From contig MPCU01000003.1 in assembly GCA_001874305.1 (NCBI GenBank), positions 248,001 through 312,000 of the forward strand: a stretch of 64,000 bases of DNA, written 5' to 3'. Of this stretch, positions 32,826 to 41,476 are shown piece after piece (the first letter of the stretch is position 1; the number at the start of each line of letters is the position of its first letter). This stretch comes from Bacteriovorax sp. MedPE-SWde (GTDB taxonomy: Bacteria; Bdellovibrionota; Bacteriovoracia; Bacteriovoracales; Bacteriovoracaceae). A model generated the notes under the pieces. It searched no databases. It was given only the letters and a program-made list of their open reading frames with translations, and was not told the DNA's origin. The position numbers were made by a program, and so were the translations under genes.

Positions 32826-34166
32826 TTATTGATTTTGCAGGAACTGTTCGATCTCATCAAGCATTGGATCCTGTGGCCCTAGAATATATTGATGAAATCC
32901 AAGAGGGTTAAAGATAAAGTCTGGTGCTCTAACTCTGTAGAAGATCCCTCTTTCAAGAGTTGCTGTCTTCACTACATTTGTCTTACTAACTATTAGAGAA
33001 TGCGCTGCTCCCGCTTCATATGGAATAAAGAGGTCGTATCTGTTTTGCTTCTCAAGAAAGAAGTTAATAATGAAGCTTCTGAGGTCATCAATATTTTGCT
33101 TATCAAAACTCGAGATAACAAAACTATCCGGATGAGTTCTTCTAATGATTTTTTCTTTTATTGGATCATTTAGTTTATCGCGTTTATTAAAAACGATAAT
33201 TTTTTCTTTGTCTTGAACTCCAAGTTCCTTTAAAACAGCTGCAGTTACTTTGAGATGGTTTTCAAAGTGCGGATCACTCGCATCACAAACAATAACCAGA
33301 AGGTCTGCTTCAAGTGCTGATTCAAGAGTCGTCTTAAATCCATCAATCAATGTGTTTGGAAGGTTTGATAAGAAACCAACTGTATCAATTAAGATCATTG
33401 GAGGTTTTGTATCAGGGTTCAGCATTCTAAAAGTTGAATCAAGAGTTGCGAAAAGCTTATCTTCTTCAAGAACATCAACACTACAAAGTCTATTCATGAG
33501 AGATGATTTACCTGCATTGGTATATCCAACGAGTGCCGCTGTAATGGCCTTCTTACTTCTCTTCTTTCTTTGCTCAATTCTTGATTTTTCAACTTCCTTA
33601 AGTTCTTTTTTAAAGAAAGCTATTCTCTCTCTAATGATACGTCTGTCGAGCTCAATCTGTTGCTCACCCTCACCACCTTTAACACCAATACCACCTCTTT
33701 GGCGACCAAGGTGAGACCAGAAACCTGCCAGTCTTGGAAGGATATATTGAAGACGAGAGATTTCAATTTGAATCTTTGCTTCTTTAGTTCTGGCGTGCTC
33801 AGAGAAGATTTCCAGAATAATATGGCATCTATCAACTACAGACATATCAGCAATATTTTTGATATTTCTTATCTGACTGGCCGTTAGCTCACAATCAAAA
33901 ACGAGTAGAGTAGAGCCTTCAGCTTTTGCTCGAGCTGCGATTTCTTCTATCTTTCCTGTTCCAAGAATCGTACCTGCTTCAATCGTCTTACGGTTTTGCA
34001 CATATTGCTCACCAGTATCAATTTCCAGGGTGCGCATTAGTTCTCTAAGCTCACCTAAACTACGGTTAGTCTCTAATTCATTAGAGTGTTCTTTAAACTT
34101 TGGGCATATAATTGAAACTAGAGATGCCTTAGATTCTCTAGATATATAAAATTCGTTATCAAGCAT
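32826..34166 (-). CDS. hflX: HflX, ribosome-associated GTPase
   Basis: HflX splits stalled or inactive ribosomes and has GTPase activity. The 446-residue protein has the N-terminal HflX domain with GTGKIEEI and VFDCELTASQIRNI, the glycine-rich loop RQRGGIGVKGGEGE, then the G domain: G1 GYTNAGKSSLMN, G3 DTVGF, G4 NKRD. A C-terminal extension of about 110 residues follows. The start overlaps panC by eight bases. Confidence 0.95.
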   Translation of the reverse strand: MLDNEFYISRESKASLVSIICPKFKEHSNELETNRSLGELRELMRTLEIDTGEQYVQNRKTIEAGTILGTGKIEEIAARAKAEGSTLLVFDCELTASQIRNIKNIADMSVVDRCHIILEIFSEHARTKEAKIQIEISRLQYILPRLAGFWSHLGRQRGGIGVKGGEGEQQIELDRRIIRERIAFFKKELKEVEKSRIEQRKKRSKKAITAALVGYTNAGKSSLMNRLCSVDVLEEDKLFATLDSTFRMLNPDTKPPMILIDTVGFLSNLPNTLIDGFKTTLESALEADLLVIVCDASDPHFENHLKVTAAVLKELGVQDKEKIIVFNKRDKLNDPIKEKIIRRTHPDSFVISSFDKQNIDDLRSFIINFFLEKQNRYDLFIPYEAGAAHSLIVSKTNVVKTATLERGIFYRVRAPDFIFNPLGFHQYILGPQDPMLDEIEQFLQNQ

Positions 34167-35025
34167 AATTAATCTTTACCAGTCTGTTATCTATTAATCT
34201 TGTTTTATCTACTTTAAAAGCTCCAAGTATAACAACTTTGTTTGTGTTTGGAGTTACTTCATTTAAATTATTTGCATCTTTAATTTCAAGATAGTTCCAT
34301 CTCTTGTCACTTAATGATGTTTCTAGGATTTTATTAATTTCAACACCGCTATTTAGCCACGAGTCACTTGTAAGTAATTTCTCTATTTGAGAAAGAGTCT
34401 TTGGCAGAGTAAGTGCCATTTGTCTTGCCTCTGTTGTTAAGTATTGGTTTCGACTACTTCTGGCCAGTCCATCTTCATCTCGTGATATAGGAAGAGTTTT
34501 AATATCTATTTGTAGTCCCATGTCGAGAACCATTCTTTGAATAACTTTAACCTGTTGGTAATCCTTTTGACCAAAGTATGCAGTAGACGCCTTAGATATA
34601 TTAAAGAGTCTGTGAACAACTGTAGTTACACCATCAAAGTGTCCTGGTCTGTCTGCGCCACAGAGAATTTCTGAGATTCCATTAACTGATATTATTGTAG
34701 AGAAGCCATCTGGATATATCTCATCAGTTGAAGCTGGTGCAAAAACGACAAGTTCCTTTCCTGAAAATTTATCGAGCTCCTCTTTCAAAAGCTCACAGTC
34801 TCTCTCAAGAGTTCTTGGGTACTCAGCAAAATCCTCGTTTGGACCAAATTGTTTTGGATTAACAAATATAGTCACAAGAGTTACAGAGTTTTCATTGAGA
34901 GATTTATTAACGAGGGAAAGATGTCCTACATGGAGATTTCCCATTGTTGGAACAAGCCCTATGGCCTTACTATTGCTTGCATGCCAAGAGTTGAGATCTT
35001 CAATTTTTCTTATTAACTTAAACAT
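34159..35025 (-). CDS. panC: PanC, pantothenate synthetase
   Basis: Joins pantoate and beta-alanine with ATP. The 288-residue protein has VPTMGNLHVGHLSLV (HIGH-type motif), FVNPKQFGPNEDFAEYPR, AYFGQKDYQQVKVIQRMV and the KMSKS-like LARSSRNQYL. All are family-diagnostic. It starts one base after coaBC ends and overlaps hflX, so coaBC-panC-hflX is one transcript. Confidence 0.96.
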   Translation of the reverse strand: MFKLIRKIEDLNSWHASNSKAIGLVPTMGNLHVGHLSLVNKSLNENSVTLVTIFVNPKQFGPNEDFAEYPRTLERDCELLKEELDKFSGKELVVFAPASTDEIYPDGFSTIISVNGISEILCGADRPGHFDGVTTVVHRLFNISKASTAYFGQKDYQQVKVIQRMVLDMGLQIDIKTLPISRDEDGLARSSRNQYLTTEARQMALTLPKTLSQIEKLLTSDSWLNSGVEINKILETSLSDKRWNYLEIKDANNLNEVTPNTNKVVILGAFKVDKTRLIDNRLVKINYA

Positions 35026-36234
35026 TTATAGCCTATTAAATATTTCAGCAGGAAGAGTCGATTTCTTCATGGTTCTCTCAAATTCTATTTCTCCATTAGA
35101 AAAGAACTTGTATGTAGCTTCATCAGTATTAAAACCTGCTTGTTGCTCATCATGACAGAGTCCACTATGAACTTGTGTACCAACAAGTAGATCGACAGGT
35201 TTTCTTTCCCATTTCTCATTGAGTACTGCTAGGCTTAATTCAGTTTCTGCTGCGAATCCAATAATCTTTTGGTTTTCCTTCTTCTTCGTGAGCACTGTTT
35301 TCAAAATATCTGGCGCAGCTGTAAACTCTAAAGAGTCACTGAGGTCATTCTTCTTCATTTTTCCTGTATTAGCATTAAACTCTAGATCGCTAATTGCTGC
35401 CGAAGAAATATATATATCAGATACACTGAAATGTTTTTCAACAGCATCCTTCATGTCATTTGTCGTAATTACACGAGTGAGCTGATATCCAGGCAAGTCT
35501 ATTAGGGAATCTAGTTTTGTCGTTGCTGATTGCCCTGCAATGACATGGGTTTTATATCCTCTTCGTAGAGCTTCAACTGCAAGTTCATATCCCGTTTTAC
35601 CTGAAGCGGCGTTTGTAACAAATCTTACCGGATCTATTGGAGCAATCGTCGCACCCGTTGTTATAAGAACTGTTTTAGATTCGGCACTTATTTTCGGATT
35701 AATAGCTTCAATACAATCAATAACTTTCTCTATTGATGGAGCTTTTCCCTGTCCCGTATCTCCACAGGCAAGCTTTCCTGAGTCTGGTGGGTGTATAAAT
35801 AAGTTACCCGCAATATGAATCCTTTTGAGAAGGTCTATATTTTCTTTTGTAATGGGATGTTCGTACATAAATGTATTCATCGCAGGAAATATCGATGTGG
35901 TAGTCTCACTTCTCTTTGCAAGAAAAATAGATGTAAGTAGGTCGTCGGCTTTACCAAATGCTAGATTAGCAAGAGTATTTGCTGAGGCCGGGTAAACAAG
36001 AAGGTGCTCTGTCCACTTCGCAAGTTCAATATGGAGAACATTGGTGTGAGTGAAGTCATCCTGAGGAAGGTAGACTTCTAGACCGAGATATTTAAATACT
36101 TCAGGCTTAACAAAGTTCAGTGATCCCTTGGTAAGGACAACTCTTACTTCATGACCTTTCTTTGAGAGACCTCTTGCAAGGTCTATTGATTTGTAAGCAG
36201 CTATTGAGCCGCAAACACCTAGCAGTATTTTCAT
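35026..36234 (-). CDS. coaBC: CoaBC, bifunctional phosphopantothenoylcysteine synthetase/decarboxylase
   Basis: Converts 4'-phosphopantothenate to 4'-phosphopantetheine. The 402-residue fusion has the flavin-binding CoaC half (LLGVCGSIAAYKSIDLARGL, PAMNTFMYEHP, LACGDTGQGK) and then the CoaB half from about residue 188 (VLITTGATIAPIDPVRFVTN, ASGKTGYELA). Length is typical. No strong ribosome site precedes ATG 36234; a TTGACA promoter sits just upstream. Confidence 0.96.
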   Translation of the reverse strand: MKILLGVCGSIAAYKSIDLARGLSKKGHEVRVVLTKGSLNFVKPEVFKYLGLEVYLPQDDFTHTNVLHIELAKWTEHLLVYPASANTLANLAFGKADDLLTSIFLAKRSETTTSIFPAMNTFMYEHPITKENIDLLKRIHIAGNLFIHPPDSGKLACGDTGQGKAPSIEKVIDCIEAINPKISAESKTVLITTGATIAPIDPVRFVTNAASGKTGYELAVEALRRGYKTHVIAGQSATTKLDSLIDLPGYQLTRVITTNDMKDAVEKHFSVSDIYISSAAISDLEFNANTGKMKKNDLSDSLEFTAAPDILKTVLTKKKENQKIIGFAAETELSLAVLNEKWERKPVDLLVGTQVHSGLCHDEQQAGFNTDEATYKFFSNGEIEFERTMKKSTLPAEIFNRL

Positions 36235-36272: not shown

Positions 36273-36445
36273 AGTTCTAAAGAATTGTAAAGAAAGTGTG
36301 GTTAAATTATATCACAATTAACTCTTAATAATTCAGTGAAATCAGTAGGTTATAAGGGATTGAAAAGAGTGATGACAAAAAACTGATCTACATCATGACG
36401 ATGCTATTTCTAACTGCCGATAATATACTAGATACGGAGATTTTA

Positions 36446-37870
36446 ATGAACAAGCAAAGTAACTTAAGGATAGTAGGCTCGTGGGAGCTTGATTTAAATA
36501 CATCAGAGCTTTATTGGTCAGATGAGACAAAGATCATCCACGGAGTCCCTTTAACCTTTAGGCCCAACCTCGAAGATGCGATAAATTTTTATAAAGATGA
36601 TCACAAAGAAAAAATTCAAATGGTAGTTAATCATCTTATAGAGTTAGGAGAAAACTTTGATGTAGATAACTGTATGCTTCTTCCTGATGGTGAAGAAATT
36701 TGGGTCAGAAGTACAGGTCTTGTTGTTCAAAGAAATGGAGATGAGGTTGTTAAAATAGGTGGGACCTTTGAGAATGTCACTGATTATTACAACAAGGTTA
36801 ATAAGCTAGAAAGGTATTGGGGTATCTTAAACGAAAGTAATATGCTGACTGTTTCTAATAAGAGTGGCGTTATTAAATTTGTGAATGATAGCTTTTGTAA
36901 TCATACAGGATACGACAGAAGCGAGGTTGTCGGTAAAACACATCGTATCTTTAACTCGGGATATCACTCGCAAGAATTTTTCCAAGAGATGTGGAATACA
37001 ATTAATAGTGGTGAAAAGTGGGAAGGCGAGATCCTTAATAAGAATAAGGATGGAAGACTTCAGTGGATAAAAACTGTTATCTTTCCAATTAAAGATCACA
37101 AAGGTGAGTTAACAGAGTTAATCAGTATTAGAAGTGACATTACAGGAGAGAAGGAATTACAGAAAAAGAAAATAGAGCAGGAGCGTTTAAGAGTTGTTGG
37201 TGAAGTAGGAGGGCAAATCCTTCATGAGCTTATGTCACCTCTAACTCTAATAAAGAGTTATACAGACAGCTTAAATTCTCTCTTAGAGAAAGAGGGGAAT
37301 ATCGAGGCTTCACAAATGACAGGTAAGCTTCAAGAAGCCTCTAATAGAGTGATAGATATTTTTAAGGATATGAGATCTTTATTAAAAGATAAGGATGATT
37401 ACAACTACGTTAATCTTGCGAGAGTTATCAAGAGAAGTTATTTCTTCACTCATCTTCAAATGCAAAAACAAGAAATTTCTTTTAATCTTGATATTGATCA
37501 AAACGCTGGAGATATTTGGGGAAGCCAGGGACAACTAACTCAAGTTTTTACGAATCTAATTAATAATTCAATTCATGCTGTGGAGTCTTTAGAAAATAAA
37601 TGGATTCGTGTATCTGTAGCAGAAAAGGATGGAATTGTTACCGCATCTGTTATGGATAGTGGTAAAGGGATAGACCCTGCCACCTCTGAGAAAGTTTTTG
37701 AAAGTTTGTTTACAACAAAGATGGAGTCAGGTGGAACAGGACTAGGCTTGGCCATATCAAAAAGACTTATTGAAAGAATGAAGGGAAAGATTTATATCGA
37801 TGACGCTAAAGAGAACACATGTTTTTGTTTAGAGTTTCCAGTAGTTAATTCGGATCTCAAGGCAGGATAG
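36446..37870 (+). CDS. Cytoplasmic PAS-domain sensor histidine kinase
   Basis: A 474-residue soluble kinase: a first PAS/PAC unit (about 8-115), a second PAS/PAC (about 120-240; SGVIKFVNDSFCNHTGYDRSEV), and a HisKA-like region with H260 in LHELMSPLTLIKSY. The catalytic domain has N-box TNLINNSIHA, G1 DSGKGID and G2 GTGLGLAIS. There is no membrane segment and no response regulator next to it. ATG 36446 follows ACGGAGATTTTA; the longer frame from 36395 has no ribosome site. A possible promoter is ATGACG-18-GATAAT at 36395-36424. Confidence 0.92.
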   Translation: MNKQSNLRIVGSWELDLNTSELYWSDETKIIHGVPLTFRPNLEDAINFYKDDHKEKIQMVVNHLIELGENFDVDNCMLLPDGEEIWVRSTGLVVQRNGDEVVKIGGTFENVTDYYNKVNKLERYWGILNESNMLTVSNKSGVIKFVNDSFCNHTGYDRSEVVGKTHRIFNSGYHSQEFFQEMWNTINSGEKWEGEILNKNKDGRLQWIKTVIFPIKDHKGELTELISIRSDITGEKELQKKKIEQERLRVVGEVGGQILHELMSPLTLIKSYTDSLNSLLEKEGNIEASQMTGKLQEASNRVIDIFKDMRSLLKDKDDYNYVNLARVIKRSYFFTHLQMQKQEISFNLDIDQNAGDIWGSQGQLTQVFTNLINNSIHAVESLENKWIRVSVAEKDGIVTASVMDSGKGIDPATSEKVFESLFTTKMESGGTGLGLAISKRLIERMKGKIYIDDAKENTCFCLEFPVVNSDLKAG

Positions 37871-37968: not shown

Positions 37969-38196
37969 ATGCATTTTGAAAAGTTTACGATAGTTAGCCA
38001 GCGCGATGTACAGGCATTAGAAGATACACATGAGATCATACTTTTAAATCTTGATCACATTGTATCAGTTAAGCCGATCAAAATTGTTGTCGAAGAAGAA
38101 GTTATTCAAGGTTATTGGATAAGAATGACAAATGGGAAGAAGTATAGATCTATTAAAGTTCCTCCTGCAATCGCTACGATCTGCGAAGAAATCTAA
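37969..38196 (+). CDS. Small protein of unknown function (75 residues)
   Basis: A short beta-rich protein with no signal peptide or membrane segment. Features are HEIILLNLDHIVSVKPIKIVV and YWIRMTNGKKYRSIKVP, a pattern seen in small regulatory or LytTR-like beta domains, but I do not recognise a family. RBS AAAGGTTGAAAA precedes ATG 37969. It converges on coaX with a four-base overlap and has a terminator inside the coaX tail. Confidence 0.65.
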   Translation: MHFEKFTIVSQRDVQALEDTHEIILLNLDHIVSVKPIKIVVEEEVIQGYWIRMTNGKKYRSIKVPPAIATICEEI

Positions 38197-38867
38197 GTAT
38201 TAAATTCTTTAAAAATATAGTAGAGGGCCTTCGCAAGAAGGTCTTTTTCGTAGTTGGCATCTGATAGCGTTAGCTTGTTTGCATCTCCACCAGTGACTAG
38301 TATATTTGAAATATTAAAAGACTTTATTTTAGTCTCTATTGATTCGATATAGTTTTGAAAAGCAGCTTCAATTGCTTGTTTCGTGTTTACTGGAATAGAC
38401 TCAATTTTCGTATTCGGGATTTCTAGACCAGGAAGATTTTTACCGTTAATAGAATAGATAGAGAGAAATGTTTTTAGGCCGGGGAAAATATACCCACCTT
38501 CGTGCTTCCCACTTATTACAATATCAATAGTAATAAAACTTCCTGCATCTACCGCAATAAATGATTCACCTGGATATATATTTTGTAAGTAGTAGACTAG
38601 TGCAAGTCTGTCATTCCCAATAGTTTCAGAGTAACTAGTTGAGAGAGATAATTTCTTTTTTAATAGATTAAAGTTTACGATATTCTTTGAGAGGCCATTG
38701 GGTATTTCTTTATTAACGGAACAGAAAATTGCTTGTTCTTGATCATTTAAACTAAGCTCTTCTAAGGAGTTTAGAATCAATACATCAAGGACTTCTCCAG
38801 AGGGAGAAAACTTGGTTACTTTTAGATTAGTATTACCCGAATCAATGGTGTAGAGAGTTTCCATCAT
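38193..38867 (-). CDS. coaX: CoaX, type III pantothenate kinase
   Basis: First committed step of CoA synthesis. The 224-residue protein is a little shorter than most type III kinases (about 250) but has the motifs: TIDSGNTNLKV (phosphate 1), NDRLALVYYL, VDAGSFITIDIV (phosphate 2) and GGYIFPGLKTFLS, with VTGGDANKL near the end. Two Mets start the frame; either fits. It overlaps panB by 26 bases. Canonical type I (CoaA) is not seen here. Confidence 0.92.
   Translation of the reverse strand: MMETLYTIDSGNTNLKVTKFSPSGEVLDVLILNSLEELSLNDQEQAIFCSVNKEIPNGLSKNIVNFNLLKKKLSLSTSYSETIGNDRLALVYYLQNIYPGESFIAVDAGSFITIDIVISGKHEGGYIFPGLKTFLSIYSINGKNLPGLEIPNTKIESIPVNTKQAIEAAFQNYIESIETKIKSFNISNILVTGGDANKLTLSDANYEKDLLAKALYYIFKEFNT
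38226..38248 (+). terminator. Terminator for the 75-residue gene, embedded in coaX
   Basis: GGCCTTC, loop GCAA, GAAGGTC, then TTTTT on the + strand. It lies inside the last codons of coaX on the other strand. Confidence 0.7.
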
Positions 38868-39648
38868 TCTTATGAATCTCTTGATTATTGGAAATGTAGC
38901 TAGAAATTAATTCTTTTTTTACATCATATAAATTTGCAATAGGCGTACAAAACTTAGGAGGTTTTCCTGGACCCATTTGTAACAGGTCATTTGTTACGAG
39001 AACCTGACCATCTGTTAGAGGACCGGCCCCAATACCAATTGTTGGAATATTTAATAAGTTAGTTATTTCTGTTGCGACTTCTTCTTTTACACATTCAAGA
39101 ACTATTGCAAAAACACCCGCTTCTTGTAGGCGAGTTGCTTCAGATATGAGTCTAAGACGGGATGCCTCATCTTTTCCATGAGTAAAGTACCCACCAAGTT
39201 CATGAACTGACTGTGGAGTTAGTCCAATATGTCCCATAACAGGAACACCACTCTTAGTGAGGCGAGATATAATTTCAAGGTGATGATCTTCAGCACCTTC
39301 AAGTTTTACAGATTCAGTTTTTGATTTTTGAAATAATTCGATACCGTTTTTAACACCATCTTCAAAAGTTGCGTAACTTCCAAATGGCATATCTGCGACG
39401 ACAAATTTATTAGGAGCGCCTCTTTTTACAGCTGAGGAAAAAGTAATCATGTCGTTAAGAGTAACTTCTACCGTAGTCTCATATCCTAGAATTACATTTC
39501 CTAGACTATCTCCAACAAGAATAAGGTCAAGGTCAGTTTCATCAAGTAGCCTTGCCGTTTGATAATCATAGCAAGTTAGCATCTGTAGAGATTTCTGTGC
39601 AGTAGCTAGCTTATGTGACCTTAATTTTCTCGTGTCCAATTTCTTCAT
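38842..39648 (-). CDS. panB: PanB, ketopantoate hydroxymethyltransferase
   Basis: Transfers a hydroxymethyl group from methylene-THF to ketoisovalerate, making ketopantoate. The 268-residue protein has MLTCYDYQTARLLDE, LVGDSLGNVILGY, VVADMPFGSY and VMGHIGLTPQSVHELGGY, and the metal and substrate residues lie in these blocks. It overlaps the upstream reductase by one base and coaX by 26, so KARI-like-panB-coaX form an operon. Confidence 0.96.
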   Translation of the reverse strand: MKKLDTRKLRSHKLATAQKSLQMLTCYDYQTARLLDETDLDLILVGDSLGNVILGYETTVEVTLNDMITFSSAVKRGAPNKFVVADMPFGSYATFEDGVKNGIELFQKSKTESVKLEGAEDHHLEIISRLTKSGVPVMGHIGLTPQSVHELGGYFTHGKDEASRLRLISEATRLQEAGVFAIVLECVKEEVATEITNLLNIPTIGIGAGPLTDGQVLVTNDLLQMGPGKPPKFCTPIANLYDVKKELISSYISNNQEIHKNDGNSLHH

Positions 39649-40604
39649 TAACGAGGCCTTAACTTTGTTCCAAGTTTATTATATAAATCTTGTAGAGGGT
39701 GATTGCTCCACTCTTTTATTACATCTGATTTAAGCTTTTGAAAATCAAAGTCTTTTGTATCATGAAAAAATTTACCTGACTCGATATCGCTATATAAATT
39801 GTCATATGTTTTCAGTAGGTTAGAGGAGAAGATTTGTTTTCTCGCCTTTTCTCCACCCATTAGTGCGTTGGGAGATATGAGCTTGAAAAACTCAACGGGG
39901 CCAAATTTAAGCATGGCATCTGCAATTAGTTTCACCTCGTGCCAGCACTCAATATAGGCCATATCTTCAGATATTCCTTTTTCTTTTAACTTATCAAAGC
40001 TTGCCTTTGCGCCATATGGGATTAGAGAACATAGAATAGACTGCTCTGAAAATAAGTCTCCATATGTTTCGTCTTTAAAGGAAACCTCAAGTGGACCAAC
40101 ATTAATTCCAAGATCTTTGGCCAGTTGTTTTAAAGATTGTTGAGATTGTGCTGAGCTGGCATGCTCTACACTTGATGCGGCCGTAAGGGGACCCTTTGTT
40201 TCATAAGCATAGCGAACCTCACTTGCAATGGCCTTTGGTGCCAAGAGTATATGGTTCTGCTTAGGGTATAGTTCATTTAGTTTTTCGTATGTTACGCTGA
40301 AACCGTGTGCATAGAAAATATTCTGATCTTCACTGAACATTGAAGAGATCGATCTAAGAATTGATGAGTGTTGATCATCTGGTGTTAGAATGATCAGATT
40401 TTGATATGAGGAAATATTGTCTTTGGAGAGTGTAAGAGTTGGGAACCCCATCTCTTTAACTAGAGAAGCAGATGAACTTGCTTCCCTAAGGCCAATTGTT
40501 ACTTCTCTTTTACTGTCTCGCAGGTTTAATGCCCAGGCCTTTGCCTGTGCTCCATAACCTATGATAAGTATATCATTAGAAAAAAGTTGAGACTTTGTTT
40601 TCAA
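39648..40604 (-). CDS. Ketol-acid reductoisomerase-family protein, candidate ketopantoate reductase
   Basis: A 318-residue relative of class I IlvC. The N-terminal NADPH domain has ILIIGYGAQAKAWALNLRDS (12-31) and IGLREASSS. The C-terminal knotted domain has D183 and E187 in DLFSEQ and E219 and E223 in IECWHEVKLI, the four metal-binding acids of the family. Two family motifs are altered: APKGPGH reads APKAIAS (K124 kept), and the SISNTAEYGD-like block reads LISPNALMGGE. The operon with panB and coaX suggests it reduces ketopantoate to pantoate, a side activity known for IlvC. TTG 40604 follows AAAGGAGTCAGC; the frame further up to 40652 lacks a ribosome site. Confidence 0.85.
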   Translation of the reverse strand: MKTKSQLFSNDILIIGYGAQAKAWALNLRDSKREVTIGLREASSSASLVKEMGFPTLTLSKDNISSYQNLIILTPDDQHSSILRSISSMFSEDQNIFYAHGFSVTYEKLNELYPKQNHILLAPKAIASEVRYAYETKGPLTAASSVEHASSAQSQQSLKQLAKDLGINVGPLEVSFKDETYGDLFSEQSILCSLIPYGAKASFDKLKEKGISEDMAYIECWHEVKLIADAMLKFGPVEFFKLISPNALMGGEKARKQIFSSNLLKTYDNLYSDIESGKFFHDTKDFDFQKLKSDVIKEWSNHPLQDLYNKLGTKLRPR

Positions 40605-40669
40605 GCTGACTCCTTTGACGTCATAAATATCATGGGGCGTTATTGTTGGCAATTTTTAGAGGTAAATTA

Positions 40670-41476
40670 GTGGAATTAACGTATATTTCAAAAAAAGATA
40701 TGACTGCTTCTGAAGCTTTATTAAACAAGGGAATACTTTGGGGTGAAGCTCCTTTTACTACTACTCTTATTAGAAAGGGAAAGATTACTTTTGAAGAGCT
40801 TCATTTAGAGAGACTCAAGAAAACGATCGAGTACTTATATCCAAAGAGTATAGAGACTTTAGATCATATTAAATTGGCCATGAATCAAATGGCCAATGAG
40901 TTTAAAGAGATTGATTTTGCTTATATGCGTGTGACTCTATTTGAATCGATAGATGGATCTTTAGAGTTTTTTATTTGGTGTATGAAAAGAGCAGTCTCTT
41001 CTAAGGCCCTTAAGCTAGGATTGCAAATTGATTCTCCAAGTTCGGTTTTACCGCGATTCTTAAAAATGGCAGATTACTCATATAAGTTTAGGCTAAGAAA
41101 TGAACTTAGGAAATCCGGACTTGATGACTGTCTATTCAAAAATGATAAAGGAGAGCTTCTTGATAGCTCCATAGCGAATGCTTATTTTATTAAAGATAAA
41201 AAAGTATATGTTAGTAAGTTGATCCCGGGTATTTTAGAGGGAACTTGTCGAAAGAAGTTATTAGGCTTCTTAGAATCTGAAGGAATAGAGTTTTCTGAAG
41301 AAATCATTTTAGAGTCTGAGCTCGAGAACTTTGATGAAGTTTGGTTAACAAATTCATTTAGCGGGCTACAAAGAGTTAAAGAAATTAACGATATAGAATA
41401 TAGAGAAGATTATTATCATGAAGTTGTTGAAAAATTTATTAAATATAGTGGTGAAATATGGCCAAGAAAAAGCTGA
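40670..41476 (+). CDS. Class IV PLP-dependent aminotransferase-fold protein
   Basis: A 268-residue member of the BCAT / D-amino-acid transaminase / aminodeoxychorismate lyase group. The probable PLP lysine is in RFLKMADYSYKFR, and the late motif GILEGTCRKKLL is typical. The glutamate that usually contacts the PLP ring nitrogen (ExxxxNxF) is aspartate here (LDSSIANAYF), so activity may be altered. GTG 40670 follows TAGAGGTAAATTA. It overlaps yacG by 19 bases and diverges from the KARI-like gene. Aminodeoxychorismate lyase (PabC) is one possibility; I leave the symbol blank. Confidence 0.75.
   Translation: MELTYISKKDMTASEALLNKGILWGEAPFTTTLIRKGKITFEELHLERLKKTIEYLYPKSIETLDHIKLAMNQMANEFKEIDFAYMRVTLFESIDGSLEFFIWCMKRAVSSKALKLGLQIDSPSSVLPRFLKMADYSYKFRLRNELRKSGLDDCLFKNDKGELLDSSIANAYFIKDKKVYVSKLIPGILEGTCRKKLLGFLESEGIEFSEEIILESELENFDEVWLTNSFSGLQRVKEINDIEYREDYYHEVVEKFIKYSGEIWPRKS

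Follow-up and report, generated by a model that had tools for sequence, protein, structure and literature searches.

In the window, the whole 64,000-nucleotide stretch of Bacteriovorax sp. MedPE-SWde analysed here, a gene for a KARI-family protein is located directly before panB on the minus strand, within a cluster that also holds coaX, coaBC and panC (Table 1). The longest open reading frame of this gene, here called pan-KARI, occupies 39648–40652 on the minus strand, begins with TTG and encodes 334 aa, while translation from the TTG at 40604 gives 318 aa. The latter is the better start because it is preceded, at a distance of 5 bases, by AAAGGAG, and the start at 40604 given in a preliminary description of this DNA was preferred over 40652 on that account. 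The pan-KARI stop codon TAA (39650–39648) and the panB ATG (39648–39646) overlap by one base, and panB and coaX overlap by 26 bases, which bears out the preliminary description in that the KARI-family gene overlaps panB and the operon runs on to coaX. In most relatives coaBC follows coaX directly; in the window, a plus-strand gene (36395–37870), the translation of which resembles a sensor histidine kinase, is located between the two and interrupts the cluster, which most relatives keep unbroken. In a promoter and terminator scan, promoter-like sites were rarer than in shuffled sequences (5 vs 10.5).

Table 1. Genes and sequence features at the pan-KARI locus (positions in the window).
Feature	Position	Strand	Remarks
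Pan-KARI gene (candidate ketopantoate reductase, KARI family)	39648..40604	−	likelier start TTG 40604; ORF extends to 40652
Shine-Dalgarno-like AAAGGAG	40610..40616	−	5 bases before TTG 40604; read from sequence
panB, ketopantoate hydroxymethyltransferase	38842..39648	−	TIGR00222 276.5 bits, cut-off 207.55
coaX, type III pantothenate kinase	38193..38867	−	PF03309 61.3 bits, cut-off 24.7
coaBC	35026..36234	−	TIGR00521 295 bits, cut-off 219.7
panC, pantoate-beta-alanine ligase (would use proposed product)	34159..35025	−	TIGR00018 288.1 bits, cut-off 212.75
hflX, final gene of conserved cluster	32826..34166	−	TIGR03156 389.9 bits, cut-off 216.75
Class IV aminotransferase, divergent neighbour of pan-KARI	40643..41476	+	PF01063 104 bits

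The window protein was confirmed as a complete member of the KARI family, with both Pfam domains above their curated cut-offs (KARI_N, PF07991, 98.7 bits against 20.6; KARI_C, PF01450, 91.4 bits against 29.1). It scored below the two NCBIfam ilvC equivalog cut-offs (TIGR00465, 191.4 < 226.15; NF004017, 192.4 < 336), both of which are passed by the canonical KARIs of relatives. No match to ApbA_C (PF08546) or to DUF2520 (PF10728) was found in the protein, and PF02558 reached 20.1 bits, under its cut-off of 22.2, reflecting a weak N-terminal Rossmann similarity. An AlphaFold model built from a 25-sequence input had a mean pLDDT of 91.4, and its best matches among solved structures were KARIs, including the Ignisphaera KARI 4xdz_A (Z 32.0, rmsd 2.0, 311 residues aligned); the match to BurG (7pci) had a Z of 29.9. 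Compared with its nearest named relative, a protein of Bacteriovorax sp. DB6_IX that is 75% identical, the gene had a dN of 0.195 and a saturated dS of about 4, and is thus under strong purifying selection. A chance open reading frame was rejected on the domain scores, the dN and dS values, the pLDDT and the fold match.

Residues are numbered by the 334-aa frame, in which D183, E187, E219 and E223 of the 318-aa frame become D199, E203, E235 and E239. These four metal acids, reported as kept in the preliminary description, were invariant in the 25-sequence alignment and correspond to the two-Mg2+ ligands D191, E195, E227 and E231 of Sac-KARI (PMC5940873). As a canonical comparison set we used 11 class I KARIs, seven from named plasmid records and four from relatives, three of the latter being encoded beside ilvB and ilvD and one in a genome with both genes on other contigs. 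H116, K140, S260 and the four metal acids were kept in all 11 canonical KARIs and in 44/45 pan-KARIs of the family; in a copy beside panB in genome G032, D199 and E239 are both lost (N and N). The β2-αB loop, in which arginine and serine residues would mark an NADPH-preferring KARI, reads GLREASSS in the window protein, with S59 and S61 nearly invariant.

The substrate motifs differ. The change of APKGPGH to APKAIAS was as first described; the letters LISPNALMG in place of SISNTAEYG were also correct, yet the motif is not replaced outright, as I259, S260 and A263 of the canonical ISxTAE are kept. From canonical KARIs to most pan-KARIs, the changes are P142I, G143A, M255F, T262N, E264L and H40W. 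E264 was present in 11/11 canonical KARIs and in none of 63 non-canonical KARIs from the related genomes, and P142 in 11/11 canonical KARIs and 0/45 pan-KARIs of the family. Position 262 is probably equivalent to T520 of spinach KARI. T520 forms part of the network of active-site residues, and when it is mutated in simulations the isomerisation, which limits the rate, is altered (PMC11264209, PMC13430628).

In the 99.71% complete genome of the organism, the window gene was the only KARI match, and a genome-wide search found no ApbA_C domain, the mark of PanE. The earlier remark that no panE was visible thus held for the whole genome, and a search for a true ilvC or panE, which had been proposed as a check, found neither. 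A hidden panE was rejected: the PF02558 matches other than pan-KARI were all fragments that scored below cut-off, in frames 244–522 aa long, and none had ApbA_C. The genome also had no ilvD, no acetolactate synthase above cut-off (best TIGR00118 score 60.5 bits against 538.35) and no DUF2520 (PanG-like) match (A3 profile, E ≤ 0.001); the ilvD and acetolactate synthase searches detected both families in 14/14 control genomes. It follows that the organism contains no branched-chain pathway in which this KARI could take part. Present, on the other hand, were panB, panC, panD, coaX, coaBC, a branched-chain (valine) aminotransferase (ilvE_II, 338.2 bits, cut-off 250.05) and a proC homologue that scored 180.4 bits, just under the TIGR00112 cut-off of 196.75. 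By this inventory, ketopantoate reduction is the sole gap in pantothenate synthesis from valine and aspartate.

A search of 97 related genomes, including that of the window and 59 of its family, found KARI in 66, ilvD in 4, ApbA_C in 5 and panB in 82. Pan-KARI was present in 45 of the 59 family genomes, all 45 of which have panB, and was absent from all seven panB-negative genomes of the family. In 43 of the 45 it is the gene immediately preceding panB, in the same orientation (exceptions, G023 and G029). A separate scan of named genomes yielded 72 loci, 63 of the pan-KARI type (L078–L140), with panB directly downstream in 60 of these; their titles mostly name Bacteriovorax, Halobacteriovorax, Bacteriovoracaceae, Bdellovibrionales, Oligoflexia or similar. 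The other nine were distant KARIs, each nearer the canonical query than the window protein. The class IV aminotransferase gene is divergent from pan-KARI in 47/63 of the named loci; no NCBIfam model matched the window copy above cut-off, and it could encode a PabC-like lyase or a supplier of ketoisovalerate. One related genome (G013) has two KARIs, a canonical one beside ilvB/ilvD and a pan-KARI beside panB, which points to a division of labour between them, and two others (G018 and G043) carry an ApbA_C protein in addition to pan-KARI.

Seven family genomes have panB without pan-KARI, and in six of them (G021, G026, G033, G036, G041 and G047) the gene directly before panB encodes a DUF2520 protein of about 240 aa. 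In the seventh (G006, 75% complete), a reductase gene is missing from the position directly before panB; at this locus (L150, 3587–3636) a plus-strand gene begins ~50 bases from the panB start. DUF2520 is the domain given for a ketopantoate reductase that takes the place of panE and is a homologue of Francisella FTT1388, so that its members include a homologue of Francisella PanG, a demonstrated ketopantoate reductase (PMC4572677); PanG is likewise given as a ketopantoate reductase in PMC5449765, PMC4494066 and PMC4207893 (Miller 2013 as cited). We call the proteins found here PanG-like, and regard them as putative PanG orthologues, by virtue of the domain so named and their position before panB.

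Across the 97 genomes, strong matches to the DUF2520 profile occurred in 17, in 16 of which they adjoin panB (exception, G079). Such a match was absent from all 63 genomes that carry a non-canonical KARI (Fisher p 6e-10, a value that ignores shared ancestry and so overstates independence); a single weak match (24.1 bits) was found in G035. The 82 panB-positive genomes comprised 61 with a non-canonical KARI (two also with ApbA_C), 17 with a PanG-like gene (one also with ApbA_C), one with ApbA_C alone and three with none of the three reductases, while a non-canonical KARI and a PanG-like gene never occurred together. Because the three genomes without a reductase (G006; G059, 80% complete; G076, 93%) retain panB, panB is not strictly dependent on one of the three. 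A canonical KARI did not replace the DUF2520 gene in G041, which has both, together with ilvB and ilvD.

A phylogenetic tree was built from 83 proteins without removal of the motif columns. One of its branches separated the 45 family pan-KARIs from all others (SH-aLRT 99), and another set apart the 11 canonical KARIs (SH-aLRT 92). A phylogeny of KARIs next to panB had been proposed at the outset, and within the family these proteins form one branch. Grouping the 45 with 14 other non-canonical KARIs, phylum-wide (59 rows), was weakly supported (SH-aLRT 81), so that a single origin beyond the family is not established. The 18 non-canonical KARIs of other families of the phylum come from genomes without ilvD, and all 18 have lost E264, while 12 keep T262. 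Only one (G067) adjoins panB in the stretches fetched, and in four the metal ligands at 199 and 239 are changed. The ketopantoate reductase reading is weaker for these 18 than for the pan-KARIs of the family. Several KARIs of families f3 and f9 (L058, L060, L062, L066 and others) have ISPTAFYG or ISPTARYG, lie away from panB and come from genomes without ilvD; they may represent an earlier stage of the pan-KARI change. Ligands 199 and 239 are lost in L043 (4071–5006, G032), L064, L071, L072 and L075, one of which is still beside panB, and such proteins may be decaying or performing another chemistry.

Taken together, these data support the idea that the window gene encodes a KARI-derived ketopantoate reductase that is dedicated to this step and depends on Mg2+ and NADPH (candidate EC 1.1.1.169; probability about 0.88). 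The preliminary description had proposed a KARI copy specialised for pantoate, and this candidate reading is supported by the lack of ilvC, panE, ilvD and an acetolactate synthase above cut-off in the genome, and strongly so by the PanG-like gene that takes the same slot in relatives, the two types never occurring together. A valine/isoleucine-synthesis enzyme would thus appear to have been turned into the missing pantothenate reductase in a predatory marine bacterium and its relatives. What the enzyme acts on, that it has lost isomerase activity and what each substitution does are inferences from these data.

In the proposed scheme, 2-ketoisovalerate for PanB would come from valine (possibly prey-derived) via the branched-chain aminotransferase, and the ketopantoate made by PanB would be taken over by the KARI-fold enzyme. 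The 2-keto-acid end of ketopantoate would be held on the two-metal site (D199, E203, E235 and E239), and NADPH would reduce the bound molecule to pantoate, to be passed to PanC. The second half-reaction of KARI is the reduction of a 3-hydroxy-3-methyl-2-keto acid. Since KARI already reduces such a keto acid, the change would have required no more than dispensing with alkyl migration. The CH2OH arm of ketopantoate would be accommodated in a pocket reshaped by P142I, G143A, M255F, T262N and E264L.

That the gene is instead an ordinary, diverged IlvC, still making branched-chain precursors, is very unlikely. Its KARI_N and KARI_C domains, its fold match to the Ignisphaera KARI and its retention of the four metal acids, H116, K140 and S260 would all suit such an enzyme, but the genome offers neither ilvD nor an acetolactate synthase above cut-off, the protein falls under both equivalog cut-offs passed by the canonical KARIs of relatives, and the otherwise invariant P142 and E264 are gone. 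A softer form of the preferred explanation, overlapping with it, is that the protein acts as a ketopantoate reductase in vivo and keeps some KARI activity, like the enzymes of C. glutamicum and Buchnera. KARIs reduce 2-keto acids promiscuously (PMC5940873, PMC4353338) and the full two-metal site survives in 44/45 pan-KARIs, which leaves bifunctionality a real but lesser possibility; against it, the pathway that would supply the KARI substrate is absent from the genome, and G013, which does synthesise branched-chain amino acids, keeps a separate canonical KARI in its ilv cluster.

It is also improbable that the enzyme reduces some other 2-keto acid or imine (for example 2-ketoisovalerate, hydroxypyruvate or pyrroline-5-carboxylate) and is located beside panB for another reason. 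There are precedents, as Streptomyces KARI homologues tested on pyrroline-5-carboxylate were promiscuous (PMC4353338), and BurG, a KARI relative with a different chemistry, also reduces hydroxypyruvate (PMC9359912). Yet ketopantoate reduction is the only step left unassigned in the pathway around the gene, and some relatives have a PanG-like gene in its place. A pyrroline-5-carboxylate reductase in particular was rejected, given the proC homologue in the genome, albeit with its sub-cut-off score. We give as little credence to a regulatory or non-enzymatic remnant heading for loss as to an ordinary IlvC: the loss of two metal ligands in G032 and the absence of a reductase gene from the space before panB in G006 are of the kind expected of decay, but the window gene is under strong purifying selection and the catalytic set is kept in 44/45 pan-KARIs.

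The activity proposed for pan-KARI, rather than its setting, has precedents. KARI acts on ketopantoate in C. glutamicum (Merkamm 2003, as cited in PMC4353338), Buchnera ilvC rescues the E. coli ilvC panE mutant FE8 (PMC4306246), and IlvC is a third ketopantoate reductase in B. subtilis (PMC11487621). These moonlighting enzymes share with pan-KARI the KARI fold and, as proposed here, ketopantoate reduction, but they also serve the branched-chain pathway, whereas pan-KARI has no such pathway left and its gene is tied to panB. Class I KARI/IlvC (EC 1.1.1.86) in general resembles pan-KARI in fold, domain order and length, and in the arginine and serines of the NADPH loop, H116, K140, the metal acids and S260. 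It differs in belonging to an ilv operon, where pan-KARI sits in a pan operon of a genome without ilvB/ilvD, and in having P142, G143, M255, T262, E264 and H40 where pan-KARI mostly has I, A, F, N, L and W.

PanG resembles pan-KARI in the proposed step and, judging by the PanG-like genes of relatives, in being encoded immediately upstream of panB; the PanG-like proteins differ in length (about 240 aa) and domain (DUF2520), and their profile matches nothing in the genome studied. PanE/ApbA (EC 1.1.1.169) would catalyse the same reaction and has a weak N-terminal Rossmann similarity to pan-KARI, but carries ApbA_C where pan-KARI has the KARI C-terminal domain. BurG, a cyclopropanol synthase, is similarly a KARI relative of matching fold with a new function; unlike pan-KARI, with its NADPH-type loop residues and place in vitamin synthesis, it uses NAD+ in a natural-product pathway. 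In a metabolic model of Bdellovibrio bacteriovorus, pantothenate and branched-chain amino acids have to be supplied from outside (PMC7529429); the pantothenate pathway of the genome studied here, by contrast, is complete bar ketopantoate reduction.

Among the matches listed from the open-licence PMC literature, there was no earlier report of a KARI in a pan operon. KARI moonlighting on ketopantoate is known; a motif-shifted KARI subfamily that is bound to the pan operon in genomes free of branched-chain synthesis appears undescribed in those matches. On balance, we favour the wider view that, alongside PanE and PanG, these proteins constitute a third class of dedicated ketopantoate reductases, derived from KARI with loss of acetolactate isomerisation and exchanged in place with PanG; with E264 lost in 63/63 non-canonical proteins, the class would be of sufficient age to span several families of the phylum.

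If so, pan-KARI would supply the only step that vitamin B5 synthesis lacks in a large bacterial group that includes known predators (Bacteriovorax, Halobacteriovorax), and would illustrate that an amino-acid biosynthetic enzyme can persist after its own pathway is lost by retaining a side reaction. It is also a warning for annotation, as the label 'ilvC' would here wrongly imply branched-chain amino acid synthesis. The pan-KARIs, PanG-like proteins and canonical KARIs of neighbouring genomes provide a ready set of enzymes for the question of what separates an isomerase from a plain reductase.

A third type of KARI was also seen (L076, 3961–5037, in G023; L077, 3998–5008, in G035; L179; L182), in which the active-site lysine is changed to arginine (APRM.G) and an SPT motif is present. 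Its sources are two genomes of the family, a haloarchaeal plasmid and Eleftheria terrae, where it lies next to NRPS/fkbH genes. Finally, on a Rhizobium lusitanum plasmid, a KARI-like gene beside polyketide genes (L181, 3995–5535) is annotated as two separate CDS.
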